A stretch of 64,000 nucleotides of DNA. Source: Duganella zoogloeoides (GTDB lineage: Bacteria; Pseudomonadota; Gammaproteobacteria; Burkholderiales; Burkholderiaceae_D). Under the pieces are notes generated by a model that was given only the letters and a program-made list of their open reading frames with translations, ran no database searches and was not told the DNA's origin. Numbering within the stretch: the first letter of the stretch is position 1; every line of letters begins with the position of its first letter. The position numbers were made by a program, and so were the translations under genes. Below, one piece after another: positions 56,535 through 64,000 of the stretch. The stretch lies in NCBI RefSeq assembly GCF_034479515.1, contig NZ_CP140152.1, positions 496,001 to 560,000 on the forward strand, read 5' to 3'.

Positions 56535-57632
56535 TTACTGTCCGCAGGCGTTGGTGTTGATATCCCAGGTCCAGTTGTTGTTGATCGCATCATAGACGCG
56601 CGGCGCCTGCCAGCGTTCCTTGCGGCCATTCTCGAAAGTGCGCACGCAGCTGCCGTTGGTGCACGAGTTGGAGCAGCGCACCACGTTGCGTTGCGTGCTG
56701 GCCACCCGGGTTGCGGCGCGCTTTTCGGCGGCGGCGCGGGCTACGGCAGCGGCCCGTTTCTTGGCCACGGCGGCGATATCGGGCAGCGGCACACCATCTT
56801 CGCGGGTTTTGTCGAAGCCGTTGAACGCGCCGGCCTTCGTCCATGGCTGGTCCAGGGTGGCCCGGATGGCCGCGAGCGAGGCGCCGCGCGCGCAAGTGGC
56901 TTCGTCATCACCGACATACAGCCCGGCCGAATTGTCCGCAGGCAAGCGCGGCGCGCGATCGGACGGCGGTCGCGCGCTGAGGCCGAACAAGGCGAAACAG
57001 ACTCTCTCATTGTCCTTCTTCATGGTAAAACTGCTGTTGTACAGCACAGCAGTAACGTGGCGGTAATCAACCGCGGCGCCCAGGTCGTAGCCGTGCAGTG
57101 CATCGAAGGCGGCTGCTTTGGTACTGTCGCTGACGTCCTGCGAGGACAGATTGATCATGCCGTTGTCTGCCTTTTGATTGGCGCGCGTGCCGCCGCTGCC
57201 AAGCAGCCGGCGCATCGCCTCGACAGACGGCACCGGCGCCCTGGCCAGCGTCGCAATGGCTTCGCGCAGCGCCTCGGCGCGGCAGTCGCCGCTGTCCCAA
57301 TCCTTGGTCACGTTTTCGTAGCGCATGATGGTGTCGTGCGTGGCCGCTGGCCGGCGCGCCATGCGCCCGTCCGCGCTGGCGATGGTGAGGCCAGCCACGG
57401 CCACGCAATAGCCGTTGTTTTGCACGCGAATCGCGCTGGTGATCGCCCACGTGGCCAATCCGCGCTCGGCCATGGTTGCCTTCATCGACGCCGGCAGGTT
57501 GGTGTCGAGGTAATCCTGTAAGCCGTTCAGACCGGTCTGGTCGATCACGGCAGGCTTGGCGGCCATGGCCGGGCCAGCCAGGCACAGCGCGGACAGCAGG
57601 GCAGCGAAGAACAGTTTGCTGTGATGTTTCAT
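56535..57632 (-). CDS. Exported Cys-containing protein, unknown
   Basis: A 365-residue protein with a signal peptide (MKHHSKLFFAALLSALCLAGPAMAA). No family is recognised. The body holds several Cys (for example NNGYCVAV, DSGDCRAE, ERVCFAL, EATCARG), then a basic Ala/Arg/Lys helix (KKRAAAVARAAAEKRAATR) and a Cys-rich end (VVRCSNSCTNGSCVR ... NACGQ). The even pattern of Cys suggests disulfides in the periplasm. GAGGAG lies upstream of ATG 57632; the frame is open further upstream but only as a shadow of the lipoprotein gene. It follows that lipoprotein gene by 38 bp, probably one operon. Confidence 0.7.
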   Translation of the reverse strand: MKHHSKLFFAALLSALCLAGPAMAAKPAVIDQTGLNGLQDYLDTNLPASMKATMAERGLATWAITSAIRVQNNGYCVAVAGLTIASADGRMARRPAATHDTIMRYENVTKDWDSGDCRAEALREAIATLARAPVPSVEAMRRLLGSGGTRANQKADNGMINLSSQDVSDSTKAAAFDALHGYDLGAAVDYRHVTAVLYNSSFTMKKDNERVCFALFGLSARPPSDRAPRLPADNSAGLYVGDDEATCARGASLAAIRATLDQPWTKAGAFNGFDKTREDGVPLPDIAAVAKKRAAAVARAAAEKRAATRVASTQRNVVRCSNSCTNGSCVRTFENGRKERWQAPRVYDAINNNWTWDINTNACGQ

Positions 57633-57670: not shown

Positions 57671-58459
57671 TCAGCGCGGCGCGCTGGAATTGAGCAGGTA
57701 CACGCCCTGTTGCAAGCCGTCCTGCGACAGGCGCCAGTAGTTGCCGGCGTCGGCCACGGTGGGCTGGCGGCAGTCCCACCTGGTGCCGGCCGGCGCCAGG
57801 TGGCACAGCGACAGCGCTTGCGTGCTCGGGAAGCGGCTCTTGGCGATGGTGAACACCACGCTGCCGCTGGCCGGCGTAAAGTTGCTGACGAATTCGAAGC
57901 CATCGACGTGGTAGCCTCCGGCCTGCGCCATCGGCAGCGCCGGTTGCCAGTAGCTGGTCCAGGTCAGTTGCGGCAAGTTGTAGCCCGGTGTGGCGCCCGG
58001 CAGCCAGGCGGGCGTCGTGTAGCGCAACCGCGCCACCTGCGACACGCAGGCCACCGAGTTGCGGCCCAGCGCCGACGACATCCGCACGCCCATGCCGGTG
58101 GCCGCGTCGGCGACGCCGCTGGAGACGACGCTGCCTTCGATGCCACGATAATCCTCGATCGACACATTCATGGCGAATGGACCGGTGCTGGTCTCGGTGT
58201 TGCCGCCGGCCGAGACGACGGCATGCGAGTAGTAGGTCGGATTGCCGGTGTGCATGGGGCGTTCCTGGCTCCAGCCGTTGGCGGCGGCATCGGCGGCCGT
58301 CGGGGTGCGGGCGCCGCAATACTCGACCAGCGGCAGGAAGCTGGCGCTGTCGCCGGGCGGCAACTGCACCTCGTCGCCGGCTGCGGCGCCGCAGCCGGCC
58401 AGCAGGCCGGCCATCATGGTGGTCAGGATCAGGGAGAAGCAAGGCAGGGCAGGTTTCAT
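57671..58459 (-). CDS. Putative lipoprotein, unknown
   Basis: A 262-residue protein with a lipoprotein signal (MKPALPCFSLILTTMMAGLLAGCG; lipobox LAGC, acylated Cys at residue 23). The mature part has three or four Cys (VEYCGART, SVACVSQ, LSLCHLA, RWDCRQP) and many aromatic/Thr residues, compatible with a beta-rich surface or secreted domain. I do not recognise the family. It is upstream of the 56535-57632 gene and divergent from the Crp-like regulator, separated by 193 bp. Function unknown; coregulation with the divergent cassette is possible. Confidence 0.7.
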   Translation of the reverse strand: MKPALPCFSLILTTMMAGLLAGCGAAAGDEVQLPPGDSASFLPLVEYCGARTPTAADAAANGWSQERPMHTGNPTYYSHAVVSAGGNTETSTGPFAMNVSIEDYRGIEGSVVSSGVADAATGMGVRMSSALGRNSVACVSQVARLRYTTPAWLPGATPGYNLPQLTWTSYWQPALPMAQAGGYHVDGFEFVSNFTPASGSVVFTIAKSRFPSTQALSLCHLAPAGTRWDCRQPTVADAGNYWRLSQDGLQQGVYLLNSSAPR

Positions 58460-58575
58460 GGAGCGCTTTCGGACAAGTTGGAAGGTTGGCGACTGGTAAC
58501 CATTCTCGTCCTTGTACGCGCTCCTGCCACGGGCGCAATCGACACCCGCAGTGTCGAATATTCTACAACACGAAG

Positions 58576-58605
58576 TTGTTGAAAAGAAATAACATAGTTT
58601 ATAAT
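58576..58605 (+). promoter_or_regulatory. Promoter of the Crp-cyclase-CHAT cassette
   Basis: TTGTTG (58576-58581), 18-bp spacer, TATAAT (58600-58605), about 48 bp before the Crp-like start. ACAAC-ACGAA-GTTGT (58565-58579) forms a small inverted repeat on its upstream edge, a possible self-binding site, though it is not a classical Crp palindrome. Confidence 0.5.
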
Positions 58606-58652
58606 CGGCAATATTTTTTGCCGGTATGATCCCGGCCTAGCCGGAGAACTCC

Positions 58653-59285
58653 ATGCCCGCACTCCCCGCCGACCACGTCTCGCCCGCCATGCTGGCGCTG
58701 GCCGCCAGCGGCGAGCGGCGCCATTACCCGCGCCGCACCCGCTTCATCAGCGAGGGCGACGAAGGCGACGCCATCTTCGTGATCCTATCCGGCCGGGTCA
58801 AGGTGTTTGCCAGCGACGAACAAGGCAAGGAATTCCTGTTCGGCACCTACGATGCCGGCACCATCCTCGGCGAGATGGCGCTCGACGGCCAGCGCCGCAG
58901 CGCCTCGGTCGAGGCGCTCACCGACGTGCAGTGCGCCGTGGTGCCGATCACCGTGCTGCGCCAGCGTATCGCCGACGATCCCGTGTTCACGCTGGAACTG
59001 ATCCGCACGCTGATCCAGCGCAGCCGCAATACCACCACTTTTTCGCGCCGGCTGGCGCTCGACAGCGCCTACCAGCGCCTGGCCGCCATGCTCAACGAAC
59101 GCGCTGTCATGCGCGACGGCCAGCGCGTGGTGGCCGAGGCGCTGAGCCAGCAGGCCATCGGCGAGCGCATCGGCGCCTCGCGCGACATGGTCTCCAAGCT
59201 GTTCAAGGAACTGGTCAAGGGCGAATACCTGCGCCACGACAAGCAGCAGATCGTGTTGCTGCGGCCGTTGCCGGCGCGGTGGTAG
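58653..59285 (+). CDS. Crp/Fnr family transcriptional regulator
   Basis: A 210-residue regulator. The cyclic-nucleotide-binding beta-roll covers about residues 15-115, with the phosphate-binding cassette GEMALDGQRRSASV (G73, E74, R82, S83), close to the cAMP-binding consensus. The dimer helix is followed by a winged helix-turn-helix (SQQAIGERIGASRDMVSKLFKEL, residues 165-187). No Cys cluster for an Fe-S centre is present, so it is Crp-like rather than Fnr-like. CGGAGAAC precedes ATG 58653. It is the first gene of a tightly packed four-gene cassette whose second gene is a nucleotide cyclase homologue. Confidence 0.92.
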   Translation: MPALPADHVSPAMLALAASGERRHYPRRTRFISEGDEGDAIFVILSGRVKVFASDEQGKEFLFGTYDAGTILGEMALDGQRRSASVEALTDVQCAVVPITVLRQRIADDPVFTLELIRTLIQRSRNTTTFSRRLALDSAYQRLAAMLNERAVMRDGQRVVAEALSQQAIGERIGASRDMVSKLFKELVKGEYLRHDKQQIVLLRPLPARW

Positions 59286-59305
59286 CGCGCCGGATACGCG
59301 GTGCC

Positions 59306-61165
59306 ATGGGGCGCTGGCGTGACGGTCGTCGCGCTGTGCTGGCGCGCCTGGCAGGTCGGCGCGAGTCAGCGTGGGCGCCGCGGTTGCGGCGACTCGCGCT
59401 GGTGCCGGCCGTGGTGCTGGCCTGCCTGGCGCTGGCTGCCACGGCGCCGCTGCAGCGGCTGGCGCTGCCATGCCTGGACCTGGGCTGGCAGCTGTTGCGC
59501 GGCCTGCCGCCTGCCAACGATGAGGACAAGGGCCGGCAGGTGCTCATCGTCGGCATCGATGAGGCGTCGATTGCCGCCAGCGGCAAGCCATTTGCCCTGA
59601 TGCACGGCGAACTGGCGCAATTGCTCGATGGCCTGCGTCTCGGCGGGGCCAGCGCGGTCGGCCTCGATCTCGTGCTGCCGCCCCGCAGCCACGCCGCGCT
59701 GCTGCCCGGCGCCAGCCGGCAACTGGCGCTGGCGCTGGCATCGGTGCGCGATCACGGCATGCCGCTGGTGATCGGCGCGCCGCCCACGGCTGCGGCTGCC
59801 GCCGATGATGCGGCGCGCCTGTATGCCGCCATCGTTGGCGAAGCGGGGCTGGCATCGTTGCAGGTGCCGCAGGACGCGGACGGCGTGCTGCGCCGGGCGC
59901 CGGTGGTGGCGGCGGGCGCGGGCGCCGCCACGCAGGGCGGCTGGCCGGCGCTCAGCGCGCAACTGGCGGCGCAGCTGGGCGCGCCGGTGCGCGCCGGTTA
60001 CGTCGATTTCCGCCTCGGCGCACCATTCGATTACGTGTCGCTGGCGCATGTACTGGCGTTGGTGCGCCAGGGCGACCATGACCGCCTGCGCGCCCTGTTC
60101 GGCGCCCGCGCGGTACTGGTCGGCGCCATCCTGCCCGACCAGGACCGGCAACGCTTGCCCGTGGCGCTGGCCGGGTGGGAACGGGGCACGACAACGGCAG
60201 GCGTGGTATTCCAGGCGCAATTGCTGCGCAGCCAGCTGGCGCAGCGCATGGTGCAGCCGCTGTGGCTGGCCGAGGCGGGCGCCGCGCTGGTGGCGGGGCT
60301 GCTGCTATGGCGGCTGCGCCACCGGCCGCGTGCCGCCACCGTGGCTGCTGCCAGCGTGGCCGTGCTGGCAGCGATGTTGACGCTGCTGGGCCTGTACTAC
60401 CGGTGGCTGGCCCTGCCGCTGGCCTGCTGGCTGGTGCTGCTGGCGGGCGTAACCTGGTGCTGGTGGCGCGCCTACCGCGACCAGCGCGCCGGCCAGCGCC
60501 GGCTGCGCAGCATCTTTGCCGGCTACGTCAGCCCGGCCATACTCGAGACCATCGTCAGCGGCGACCTGCGCGCCGGCCTGGCCAGCCAGCGCCAGCCGCT
60601 CGCCTTCCTGTTCGCCGACCTGCGCGGCTTTACCGCCCTGTGCGCAGTGCTGCCGCCGGAACAGGTGATCGCGCTGCTGAACCGCTACTACGCCGCCATC
60701 ACGGTGCCGCTGCACCACCACGGCGGCACCATCGACAAGTTCAGCGGCGATGGGGTGATGGTGTTTTTCGGCGCCCCCGCACCCAGCGCCAATCCTTGCC
60801 GCGACGCGCTGCTGGCGGCCCACGGCGTGCTCGCTGCCCTGGCGCTGCTCAATGCCGAACTGGCGCGCGAAGGCAGGGCGCCGCTGCGCGCGGGCATTGG
60901 CATCGCCTACGGCGACGCCGTGCTCGGCAACGTGGGTACGCCCGAGCGCCACGATTACACAGCCACGGGCGCCGCCACCGCGCTGGCTGCCCACATCCAG
61001 CAACACTGCAAGCGCACGCCCCACGCGCTGCTGATGGCGCGCGAAGTGCTGGTGCGCGCTGCGCTGGCGCCCGCAGCTGCCGCCGGCTACGTGCTGCTGG
61101 ACTGCCATCTCGACAAGCATGGCCAGGTGGCGCTGGCCGCCTACCCCGATGTGAAAGGAAGCTGA
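59306..61165 (+). CDS. CHASE2 domain - class III nucleotide cyclase
   Basis: A 619-residue membrane protein. One helix near residues 28-47 is followed by a periplasmic CHASE2 sensor (about 50-310, with IVGIDEASIA, ADGVLRRAPV, AVLVGAIL). Three close helices (about 319-337, 344-364, 367-388) lead to a cytoplasmic cyclase domain (about 430-600). The metal-binding D438 (FADLRGF) and D482 (SGDGVM) and K478 are kept. The segment that normally reads GDxVNxAARL is GAATALAAHI, with A559 and H563 replacing the transition-state Asn and Arg. Activity is therefore doubtful. ATG 59306 is used; a GTG at 59279 that overlaps the previous stop is an alternative. Stop and next start share a base. Confidence 0.9.
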   Translation: MGRWRDGRRAVLARLAGRRESAWAPRLRRLALVPAVVLACLALAATAPLQRLALPCLDLGWQLLRGLPPANDEDKGRQVLIVGIDEASIAASGKPFALMHGELAQLLDGLRLGGASAVGLDLVLPPRSHAALLPGASRQLALALASVRDHGMPLVIGAPPTAAAAADDAARLYAAIVGEAGLASLQVPQDADGVLRRAPVVAAGAGAATQGGWPALSAQLAAQLGAPVRAGYVDFRLGAPFDYVSLAHVLALVRQGDHDRLRALFGARAVLVGAILPDQDRQRLPVALAGWERGTTTAGVVFQAQLLRSQLAQRMVQPLWLAEAGAALVAGLLLWRLRHRPRAATVAAASVAVLAAMLTLLGLYYRWLALPLACWLVLLAGVTWCWWRAYRDQRAGQRRLRSIFAGYVSPAILETIVSGDLRAGLASQRQPLAFLFADLRGFTALCAVLPPEQVIALLNRYYAAITVPLHHHGGTIDKFSGDGVMVFFGAPAPSANPCRDALLAAHGVLAALALLNAELAREGRAPLRAGIGIAYGDAVLGNVGTPERHDYTATGAATALAAHIQQHCKRTPHALLMAREVLVRAALAPAAAAGYVLLDCHLDKHGQVALAAYPDVKGS

Positions 61166-61986
61166 TGGACAAGCGATGGACTGGATGGCTGCTATTCTCG
61201 GCGCTGACCGGCTCGGTGCTGGCGGCACACGCCGCGCCGCTGCAGGTAACGCAAGTGCACGGCACGGTACAGCAAGGTGCGCGCAGCGTGCGCCTGCTCG
61301 ACATGCTCGACGATGGCGCCAGCCTGACGCTGGCCGAGGCCGCCATACTGGTGGGGTGGGACGCGCAGTCGGACCGGCGCTATGTGTTTGCCGGTCCCTC
61401 CCGCGTAACGCTGACCGTCAACGGCCCGGTACTGGCCGGATCCGGCAGCATGCAGGTGCTGGCGCCGCGCCGCCCGCTGCGCGCCGCCCCGAACGAGGCG
61501 ACGGTCATGGCCGGCGCCATCATGCGCTCGGCCACGCCGTCCGCGCCGGCGCCAGCCCATGCCGCGTTGTCACCGGCATCGACTGGCGCGCCGGCACAGC
61601 AGGCGGACCGGGTGCTGCCGCTGGCGCTGGCGACGTTCAACTGGCGCAACCGGCCACACATCGGTGACTGGATTTTCCGGCTCCACGACGGCAGCGGCGC
61701 GCTCGTGCACGAGGCCACGGTGGCGGCGCCGCGCTACCGCCTGCCGCCACAGCTGCTGCTGGCGCCTGCGCAGGCTTACCGCTGGTCGGTGGCCTGGCAC
61801 GATGGCAGCGCCGTGGTGCAGGGCCCTTCCCAGCCGGTGCAGACGATGGCGCGGCAGCCGGTGGTCATGCCGGGTGCGCACGCCAGCGCCGCTGAACGCG
61901 CCGGCGCGGCGCTGCTGTTGCGCGACAACGGCCAGCTCGAACAGGCGCGCCAGCTGGCGCCGGCGCTGCTGGATGACACGCCATGA
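61165..61986 (+). CDS. Exported FecR-like protein
   Basis: A 273-residue protein with a signal peptide (MDKRWTGWLLFSALTGSVLAAHA). The first mature half (TQVHGTVQQGARSVRLLDMLDDGASLTLAEAA ... VFAGPSRVTLTVNGP) resembles a FecR-type beta domain. After an Ala/Pro linker comes an Ig/Fn3-like part (WIFRLHDGSGALVHEATV ... AYRWSVAWHDG). No transmembrane anchor remains, so it would be soluble in the periplasm. AAAGGAAG precedes the ATG, which overlaps the cyclase stop by one base; the CHAT gene overlaps its end by 4 bp. FecR-like proteins are commonly found beside CHASE2 proteins; role is unknown. Confidence 0.78.
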   Translation: MDKRWTGWLLFSALTGSVLAAHAAPLQVTQVHGTVQQGARSVRLLDMLDDGASLTLAEAAILVGWDAQSDRRYVFAGPSRVTLTVNGPVLAGSGSMQVLAPRRPLRAAPNEATVMAGAIMRSATPSAPAPAHAALSPASTGAPAQQADRVLPLALATFNWRNRPHIGDWIFRLHDGSGALVHEATVAAPRYRLPPQLLLAPAQAYRWSVAWHDGSAVVQGPSQPVQTMARQPVVMPGAHASAAERAGAALLLRDNGQLEQARQLAPALLDDTP

Positions 61987-64000
61987 GCGGGCCGGCCTGG
62001 CCCGGGTCGCATTCACTGCGCCGGCAGCAGGGCCGCGCTGCGCTGGCGCTGGCCGTGCTGCTGTCGCCAGCCATGGCGCCAGCGTCGGTCGCAGCCGCGC
62101 CCGTGTCCGCGCCCGTGTCGGCAGCACCATTGCGGGCGCAGGTCGAAGACCTGGCCGGTTCCGGGCGCTACCGTGCGGCGCTGGCGCAAGCGGAACCGGC
62201 GCTGGCGCTGGCCGAGCGCAATTTCGCATCCGGCACGCCGGCGGCGCAGATGGCGCTGCTAGAAGCCCTGTACGCCGTTGGCCACCTGCGCTACCTGGCC
62301 GGCGACGCGCAACTGGCACTGCAGCATTACAGTCGTGCGCTGGCCGTCAGCCAAGGCGTTGCGCCGCAGCTGGCGCTGCGCTGGGCACCGATCCTGGTGC
62401 CCGCTTTTGACGAGCTGGCGAAACGGCGCGGCGCCCATGCGCTGGCCGTGCAACAGCTCGCACCCGTGCTGGCCTACCCCGGCATGGAGTCCGCCGCCGC
62501 CTGGTCGTTGCGCTTCGATGTGCGCAGCCGCCTCGGACGCGCCGCCCTGCGCGCCGGCGACGCGGCAGTGGCGCAGCGCGAGCTGGCGCTGGCCTTCGAG
62601 GAGCGCGTGGCGGCGATCGGCATCACGCTGCAAACACCGATCATGGTGGCGCACCAGCGCCAGGTGCGCGGCGACCTGACCACCTTGCGCAACGTCCAGC
62701 AGCGCATGCTGGAAACCGTGGGCGCCCTGGGCCAGACCCGCCAGATCAGCCGTGACGATGGCCGGCCTGCACGCGATTATGCGGTGCGCCATGACTGGCT
62801 CGAAGCCGATACCCCCGCCGCCAACCTGGTACGGCTGCACGCAGCCGAGCCGGAATGGCTGCTGGCGTTTTATCACGGTGCGTTTGCCGACTACGCGCGC
62901 AAGATGCAGCAGGTGCCGCAGGAGGAGGGCTATGTCGAACTGGAAATGGAATACGCCGTATTCGGCGCCTACCTGTCGGCTGCGGGCCGCTGGGCGCCGG
63001 CCGCCGAGGCCATCGTCCAGGCATTGCGCCTGAATGCGCTGCGCTTGCCGGCAGAGCAGGCGTACCTGACGCCGGATCACATGGTGGCGGCATTGGCCAC
63101 GCGCCGCGCGCTCGTGCACCTGGCCGTATCGCACCAGCTGGCAGCCGATGCTGCCGATGCAGCCGGTACTGCAGGCGCCGCCGGCGTGCGCACCGTGGTC
63201 GGCGAACTCATGCAGATCAAGGAACTGTCCGGCGCTGTACGCCTGGGCCGCGCCGCCGCCCTGCGGCAGGCACTGGCGGCAGGTTCGGACCCTGTCGAGG
63301 TCGTGCTGGCGGCGCTGAACCGGCTCGACCCCAATGCCTCGTTCGAGGCGTATGCGCAGTACAGCAACCTCGACTTGCAACTGCAGACGCTGCTCGTGCC
63401 CTATACGGCGCCGTTGACGCTGACGCCCGGCGCCCGCCTGCTGGCCCAGGTGCAGGGCGCACTCGGTGACGAGGTGCTGCTTGCCTACAGCGTCCATCAA
63501 CCGCTCGACTTTGCCACGATGACGTGGCAGCCGCCGCGCTACCTGGGCCAGCTGGTCAGCGCGCAGCGCGTCACCATGGCGGAGCTGGGGCCGGCCGCAG
63601 CCATCAACGCGGAGCTGGCCGACTGGCGCGCGGCCCTGCTGGCGGGCGCCGCCACCGAGCACGCAGGCGGCGCAGCAGCAGCCACTCCCGTTGCCGCCGT
63701 TGCTGGCCTTGCCGACGCATTCGGCGTCGAGGCTGTCGCCGCGGGCGGTTCCGACGTGCCGTATCGGCGCCTGTTACAGCCCTTGCTGGGCAAGCGCGCC
63801 GCCGCCGCGTCCTACGTGGTGTGGCCCGATGCCGAACTGGCGCAACTGCCGTTCGAGGCGCTGGTCGATGACAGCGGCCAGTACCTGCTGGCGCGCGGTC
63901 CGTGGCGTTACCTGGGCGCGGTGCGGCAGTTGCTGGCGGCGCCGTCCGCCAGTCGCAGCGGCGGCGCTGCCGTGGTGCTGGGCGCCCCTGATTTTGACGC
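61983..64000 (+). CDS. Exported helical-repeat CHAT domain protein, 3' end beyond window
   Basis: An open frame of 672 codons from ATG 61983 (overlapping the previous stop as ATGA) to the window edge, without a stop. A signal-peptide-like segment (GRAALALAVLLSPAMAPASVAAAP) follows a basic stretch. Residues about 50-580 are Ala/Leu-rich amphipathic helices, TPR-like in places (LAGDAQLALQHYSRALAVS). From about residue 590 a CHAT domain begins: ASYVVWPDAELAQLPFEALVDDSGQYLLARG, then the YLGAVRQLL strand and AVVLGAPDF. CHAT domains are caspase-like peptidases of clan CD. The catalytic His and Cys are expected beyond base 64000 and cannot be checked. Confidence 0.85.
   Translation, partial: MSGPAWPGSHSLRRQQGRAALALAVLLSPAMAPASVAAAPVSAPVSAAPLRAQVEDLAGSGRYRAALAQAEPALALAERNFASGTPAAQMALLEALYAVGHLRYLAGDAQLALQHYSRALAVSQGVAPQLALRWAPILVPAFDELAKRRGAHALAVQQLAPVLAYPGMESAAAWSLRFDVRSRLGRAALRAGDAAVAQRELALAFEERVAAIGITLQTPIMVAHQRQVRGDLTTLRNVQQRMLETVGALGQTRQISRDDGRPARDYAVRHDWLEADTPAANLVRLHAAEPEWLLAFYHGAFADYARKMQQVPQEEGYVELEMEYAVFGAYLSAAGRWAPAAEAIVQALRLNALRLPAEQAYLTPDHMVAALATRRALVHLAVSHQLAADAADAAGTAGAAGVRTVVGELMQIKELSGAVRLGRAAALRQALAAGSDPVEVVLAALNRLDPNASFEAYAQYSNLDLQLQTLLVPYTAPLTLTPGARLLAQVQGALGDEVLLAYSVHQPLDFATMTWQPPRYLGQLVSAQRVTMAELGPAAAINAELADWRAALLAGAATEHAGGAAAATPVAAVAGLADAFGVEAVAAGGSDVPYRRLLQPLLGKRAAAASYVVWPDAELAQLPFEALVDDSGQYLLARGPWRYLGAVRQLLAAPSASRSGGAAVVLGAPDFD

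Follow-up and report, generated by a model that had tools for sequence, protein, structure and literature searches.

A conserved five-gene module of Duganella zoogloeoides groups a Crp-family regulator and a CHASE2 sensor of altered cyclase helix with a CHAT protein and a predicted lipoprotein

We analysed a 64,000-nucleotide stretch of the Duganella zoogloeoides genome (hereafter the window; bases 496001-560000 of the complete 6.32-Mb chromosome), in which genes for a Crp-family regulator, a CHASE2 sensor with a class III cyclase domain, a 273-amino acid (aa) protein and a CHAT protein follow one another (Table 1). An earlier note on this DNA had described these four plus-strand genes as a compact cassette, and its gene boundaries held: a 20-bp gap separates the Crp and cyclase genes, the cyclase gene overlaps the next gene by 1 bp, and the 273-aa protein and CHAT genes overlap by 4 bp. 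Its Crp-like, CHASE2-cyclase and CHAT identities were each borne out by Pfam. The 619-aa cyclase matches CHASE2 (1.3e-27; 97 bits, cut-off 26.3) and Guanylate_cyc (1.6e-9), and the regulator carries both the cNMP and the HTH domains of the CRP/FNR family. A lipoprotein gene that diverges from the Crp gene was overlooked in that note; the module has five genes. Because the window belongs to a complete chromosome, the CHAT gene could be read to its end, its last 709 bp being taken from the same chromosome beyond the window (locus L003). The earlier note had left room for further genes past position 64,000; none on the same strand follows the CHAT gene, and the next gene, 7 bp on, is convergent and encodes a propeller/Y_Y_Y/GGDEF protein (Pfam).

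Table 1. Genes and features of the module, in window coordinates.
Feature	Position	Strand	Remarks
Lipoprotein gene (262 aa), lipobox LAGC, divergent from Crp	57671..58459	-	Fifth module member
Intergenic region common to lipoprotein and Crp genes, candidate control region	58460..58652	.	
Crp-family regulator, 210 aa	58653..59285	+	Pfam cNMP_binding 1.6e-20, HTH_Crp_2 2.5e-7
'H-type' membrane protein, 619 aa, CHASE2 sensor and class III cyclase domain	59306..61165	+	
Rewritten catalytic helix, cyclase residues 553-566 ATGAATALAAHIQQ	60962..61003	+	Canonical form ~AIGDTVNxAARxE
273-aa predicted exported protein	61165..61986	+	N-terminal beta domain, FN3-like domain, C-terminal helices
CHAT protein, 908 aa	61983..64709 (window ends 64000; L003:5983-8709)	+	Pfam PF12770 6e-64

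The module was followed through 392 genomes of the family (195 for the CHAT protein). Each search scored few candidates per genome (4 for CHAT, 3 for the cyclase, 6 for the lipoprotein and 7 for Crp), so that the counts are lower bounds. All five genes occur together in four of the 392 genomes, namely the window's own (G000), G399, G218 and G306. The cyclase profile gave 862-967 bits in these four and 433 bits in the next; three of its 19 rows (G257, G173 and G115; 207-210 bits; L132 and L133 opened) belong to another CHASE2-cyclase type and were excluded. A Crp orthologue of at least 68% identity was found in the same four genomes, the next best reaching 46%, and the lipoprotein profile gave 406-416 bits in them, 212-263 bits in six more and a weak match in one, leaving aside a G125 match (E 7.5e-4) and a second fragment of G334. 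The lipoprotein gene lies near the module at all four loci. The CHAT protein had some match in 18 of the 195 genomes, the window's own alone spanning the full protein. Among 74 genomes of the genus, 12 match the CHAT protein, G218 being the one besides the window's own whose match is long (residues 104-907, 39%), and the H-type cyclase and the Crp gene are found in two genomes, the same two. A DNA-pattern scan of genome contigs for relatives yielded two distant loci.

The five genes are arranged in three ways. In G000 and G399 the lipoprotein gene diverges from Crp-cyclase-273 aa-CHAT; in G218 the order is cyclase-273 aa-CHAT-Crp, with the lipoprotein gene ~2.3 kb on; and in G306 Crp-cyclase diverges from lipoprotein-273 aa-CHAT. 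Pairwise identities among the four modules are 70-78% for Crp, 57-70% for the cyclase, 33-55% for the lipoprotein, 38-60% for CHAT and 34-53% for the 273-aa protein. Further pairs came from database proteins, whose source labels were Duganella, Telluria and Massilia: seven pairs lie on equally sized contigs, which suggests that each pair comes from the same contig (five CHAT-cyclase, one cyclase-273 aa and one CHAT-273 aa; P0014/P0154, P0020/P0155, P0024/P0158, P0018/P0166, P0021/P0169, P0128/P0135 and P0010/P0126).

Across the order, a cyclase of the cassette type (E<=1e-60) was detected in 15 of 194 other genomes. Among the 11 loci opened, all four families, namely Crp, cyclase, FecR/DUF928-like protein and CHAT, stand together at four (G491, G421, G431 and G558); CHAT lies near the cyclase at seven and a FecR/DUF928-like protein at eight. 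Looser versions of the module, with a cyclase, a FecR/DUF928-like protein, often CHAT and sometimes Crp, are present in other families of the order. A search for the motif pattern in L118, L119, L120, L180 and L181 gave no match. In this search across the Burkholderiales the homologues were found adjacent to one another, as the earlier note had expected of a functional unit, and linkage of the module is strongly supported. The genes might still be chance neighbours working apart, and their order does vary and members can be absent in relatives, but the same five recur in three arrangements with different flanking genes at each of the four loci, and an overlap of two sets of four in 392 would have a probability of 1e-9 if genomes were independent, which they are not; we regard chance as scarcely credible.

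The module appears to sit in an interval that is short in relatives. In the window's genome the flanking genes, which we take to be valS and thiC, enclose the module and the GGDEF gene at a distance of 11.6 kb from one another; in four complete genus relatives that were opened (seven were searched besides the own genome) the distance is 1.0-2.5 kb. The module and the GGDEF gene have a GC content of ~0.70-0.73, vs 0.64-0.66 on either side, and a thiamine pyrophosphate (TPP) riboswitch lies ahead of thiC, downstream of the insert (L003:11965-12073).

The cyclase domain has an unusual active site. In an alignment of 127 sequences, the window's protein and 56 relatives (P0131-P0186, ~41-97% identical) form the H-type clade (n=57), which is monophyletic with support 1.0, and with 100/100 after the motif columns were masked. 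The position of the transition-state Arg is His in all 57 members; of the remaining 70 cyclases, 68 retain Arg and two have Lys. The substrate Asp is lost in every clade member (Ala in 55, Phe in P0132 and Ser in P0169), and the transition-state Asn is replaced by Ala or Thr in 47 and retained in 10, a distribution that suggests repeated losses of Asn or its reappearance. In the window's protein these three positions are Ala556, Ala559 and His563. Both metal-binding aspartates (Asp438 and Asp482 in the window's protein) are retained in 127/127 sequences and the substrate Lys478 in 57/57 of the clade, and the new motif, ATGAxxxxAAHxQQ, ranks among the most constant stretches of the protein. Distant relatives mostly carry the canonical residues. 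The cyclase of G491, with Asp-Asn-His, is sister of the clade with moderate support (89/77), suggesting that the Arg-to-His change came before the change of Asp. Simple decay of the domain was rejected in view of the near-invariance of the new motif.

The earlier note had assumed a class III cyclase that makes cyclic nucleotides. Membership of the family stands, by the Guanylate_cyc match, and production by the window's protein can no longer be assumed because the canonical Asp/Asn/Arg trio is gone. We weighed the possibility that the domain binds Mg-nucleotide and makes nothing, relaying the CHASE2 signal through its shape or a pairing with a further cyclase; Crp would then read cyclic AMP (cAMP) made elsewhere in the cell. 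The losses of Arg (57/57), Asp (57) and Asn (47) speak for it, as does a second class III cyclase encoded in the genome (G000:C1:1368069-1368593), and we counted in its favour the residual pattern, metal Asp present and Asp/Asn/Arg lost, which resembles the C1 half of mammalian cyclases. Enzymes that are active with His at the Arg position are not known to us. Against it, both metal aspartates and Lys478 persist across the clade down to 41% identity, and Crp and the H-type cyclase occur in the same 4/392 genomes. Two precedents soften the conclusion that the cyclase is inactive: in the solved cyclase 2w01 Ala aligns with the substrate Asp, and Ma1120 is described as active despite Ala for Asn (PMC4215837). 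On balance we consider a silent domain rather unlikely. Since both metal-binding Asp residues and the Lys are retained, the motif is near-invariant and the cAMP contacts of Crp are intact, the sensor looks re-tooled rather than decayed.

Taking the E. coli CRP sequence and its list of cAMP-contact residues as we presume them to be, the four module Crp proteins retain Gly71, Glu72, Arg82, Ser83 and Thr127 and have Thr in place of Ser128; binding of a cyclic nucleotide is therefore to be expected from the sequence. The recognition helix SRDMVSK is identical in all four. Within the genus the orthologue (at least 68%) is confined to G000 and G218 of the 74 genomes, the others reaching at most 39% among the matches listed. 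A housekeeping role for Crp was rejected, with no orthologue above 39% among the matches listed for the other 72 genus genomes.

In a PADLOC search the cyclase domain matched PycC (3.7e-17) and Crp matched PycTIR (1.4e-11), which would fit a Pycsar-kind anti-phage defence with the cyclase signalling upon infection and the protease killing or blocking. These matches are confined, however, to the shared cyclase (residues 429-569) and cNMP (15-128) domains. The four plus-strand proteins match neither TIR nor another Pyc effector, the cNMP domain of Crp being the only part with an effector match; PADLOC gave nothing for CHAT, and the sensor part is extracytoplasmic by family. We hold such a defence role to be very unlikely.

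The CHAT domain is well supported (PF12770, 217 bits vs a cut-off of 24). The catalytic residues, which lie past the window's edge, are present as His747 (LATHGFF) and Cys821 (LSACESG), and the dyad is kept in all 42 aligned CHAT proteins and in 11 of 11 further ones (53/53). A search of solved structures with the CHAT protein gave four weak matches (0.009 to 0.99), among them proteasome S5a/RPN10, a design and a consensus TPR, which were set aside as chance or helix likeness. A second CHAT match in the same genome (G000:C1:779898-780287; L002) lies below the family cut-off (E 3.5e-4). For the 273-aa protein, which the earlier note had called FecR-like, there was no match in Pfam (even at E<=10), NCBIfam or PADLOC, so that the FecR name rests on resemblance. 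Its homologues in L067, L068, L091 and L130 have sub-threshold matches to DUF928 (PF06051; 16-24.9 bits, cut-off 26), a family that the window's own protein does not match, and its second domain is predicted to be FN3-like. The lipoprotein had no Pfam match and no Foldseek match at E<=0.001; its lipobox Cys and four further Cys residues are invariant in 10/10 aligned homologues. The N-termini of the 273-aa and CHAT proteins look signal-peptide-like by eye, and both are predicted to be exported.

The earlier note had placed the four genes behind one promoter, for which we found no evidence: a sigma-70 scan gave no site (0.2 expected). A TATAATC box precedes Crp in 3/3 aligned relatives. The region between the lipoprotein and Crp genes contains a 12-mer, TGTCGAATATTC, common to the window and G399, and 2 of 500 shuffles reach 12. 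A palindrome scan ahead of Crp listed none in the G399 region, and no Crp site is claimed for this reason. Terminator-like sites number three (2.2 expected), every one within the CHAT gene.

We propose that the five genes form a conserved module, likely a Crp-controlled envelope-signalling circuit that includes a CHAT protease, predicted to be exported, and a predicted lipoprotein, a reading to which we give an even chance. An envelope cue would act on the CHASE2 domain, perhaps via the 273-aa FecR/DUF928-like protein. The cyclase domain would still bind Mg-nucleotide and send Crp a nucleotide message, made with His replacing the transition-state Arg; that the altered enzyme is still catalytic is the least certain step, with a chance that we put slightly below even. 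Crp would act on the intergenic region that its gene shares with the lipoprotein gene, sensor and regulator together switching on the predicted exported CHAT protein and the predicted lipoprotein. The CHAT enzyme may work in the periplasm or at the surface, where the lipoprotein could be its anchor, regulator or substrate. Compared with the envelope circuit of the earlier note, the four genes as one unit are upheld, by the five-gene co-occurrence in the family and by the four families standing together in the order; the unit is larger by one gene, its cyclase is not canonical and its FecR member is unconfirmed.

Several findings weigh against this circuit. The co-occurrence does not represent four independent events, because the H-type genomes are two same-genus pairs. 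CHAT is missing beside the cyclase at 4/11 of the opened order loci, and among the 15 canonical-type family loci it was found within the fetched stretch at 12 and not in G081, G198 or G240. Neither a promoter, at the scan threshold, nor a Crp site was found. Export of the 273-aa and CHAT proteins is read from their N-termini by eye alone. Every clade cyclase has lost the Arg, the second class III cyclase could supply cAMP instead, and Asn and Arg are termed essential in mammalian cyclase by the title of a paper on the reference list of PMC4215837.

The canonical-type relatives of the cyclase, judged by their motifs, come from 12 other family genomes and G198, G214 and G240. All 15 of these loci have, near the cyclase, a DUF928-like protein related to the 273-aa one, and 8/15, all of one genus, have the order TpsB-CHAT-TpsA-cyclase-DUF928-like (L066, L123-L129 type); gene calls on the low-GC loci L123-L129 were taken from tblastn reading, and L074, L152 and L153 were left out. 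These clusters share a homologous cyclase, CHAT and a 273-aa-type protein with the module, but they have canonical cyclase residues and two-partner secretion genes, and the Crp and lipoprotein queries had no match there. The module might instead be a surface-attachment or matrix circuit, belonging to a family of CHAT units with ties to two-partner secretion, in which CHAT processes or releases surface proteins. No TpsA/TpsB query matched among the genes near the H-type modules (the window's locus L003 was not queried), and the 5ix9 match is limited to one small domain; we consider this improbable.

In logic the nearest studied pathway appears to be that of Sinorhizobium meliloti, where feeding of the CRP-family regulator Clr by CHASE2 cyclases is established (PMC13001267). 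Its CyaD1/CyaD2/CyaK, outer-membrane NsrA and Clr likewise combine a CHASE2 class III cyclase, a CRP-family regulator and an envelope cue; its cyclases raise cAMP, whereas the window's cyclase is without the canonical trio, and the available text describes no CHAT protease or lipoprotein there. Set beside such a CHASE2/Crp envelope circuit, the module would have an unusual output (CHAT) and an unusual cyclase. For the protease, the nearest would be the TPR-CHAT (Csx29) of the type III-E Craspase and HetF. The former likewise has a CHAT domain with a His-Cys dyad on an N-terminal helical part, but sits in a CRISPR complex, whereas the window's CHAT protein is predicted to be exported and is linked to a CHASE2 sensor (PMC9729208, available part). 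HetF, a putative CHAT protease of Anabaena whose function needs the active site, acts in cell division and heterocyst formation, with no such gene partners seen in the available part of PMC8406250. A Nostoc cluster of two WD40 genes, a CHASE2 sensor and a DUF928 gene places CHASE2 beside DUF928 as here, with WD40 proteins where the module has CHAT, Crp and the lipoprotein (PMC5587647, available part). We found no description of the five-gene combination in the open-licence PMC literature.

The module joins CHASE2 signalling and exported-looking CHAT proteases, both poorly understood, in one small unit, and its rewritten helix beside an intact Crp pocket asks whether class III cyclases can function without the canonical Arg or act as nucleotide sensors. 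A bolder version, which we think improbable though worth stating, is that the His-for-Arg cyclase represents a new class whose unusual cyclic nucleotide is read by the partner Crp and arms an exported caspase-like protease, with a GAIN/FIIND-like surface lipoprotein as partner or substrate. If so, bacteria would have, in the envelope, a counterpart to protease-sensing systems of which NLRP1/CARD8 are examples.

Parts of the module were also met in other settings. In G257, G334 and G198 a lipoprotein homologue has CHAT and a response-regulator-like/kinase-like pair as neighbours; in G091 such a pair stands next to it and CHAT is absent; CHAT was not found near the lipoprotein in G403, G311 and G045. 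At L155:5659-11661, L160:7236-13005 and L089:9429-15122, the neighbours of CHAT and the lipoprotein are a kinase-like gene and one for a LytTR-like response regulator. The two-component names were assigned by reading the sequences, with no profile, and these loci look like a second version of the system, in which the pair replaces the cyclase, Crp and the 273-aa protein. In G010 and G051, CHAT and a 46% identical Crp are separated by 1.2-1.6 kb. L148:4775-9605 carries a Crp with 44% identity to the window's, next to a 1366-aa protein of which one part is weakly cyclase-like. Five plasmid matches were opened; four annotated stretches have no CHASE2 gene beside CHAT, and H4 is unannotated.

Next to the lipoprotein gene, a 365-aa exported-looking open reading frame (56535-57632, minus strand) has no Pfam match up to E 0.1 and, used as a query, had none in the other three module loci. 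L091:3527-13039 contains CHAT, the lipid-transport type genes MlaE and MlaD and a TPR gene, all by Pfam, together with a DUF928-like gene and one for a CHASE2 cyclase, and L092:6633-16105 has the same order, judged by gene position. A different CHASE2-cyclase unit lies at L077:9636-12827 and L078:9100-12378, with an M48 peptidase gene in L078, and in genus genomes; counted by eye, at least 11 of the 74 have a CHASE2-type cyclase 1.5-1.9 kb from a Crp-like gene. At L167:7705-17923 (Caballeronia), CHAT, ShlB/FhaC and haemagglutinin-type genes are inside a type VI secretion cluster, and L090:7728-15635 (G221) carries a similar set.

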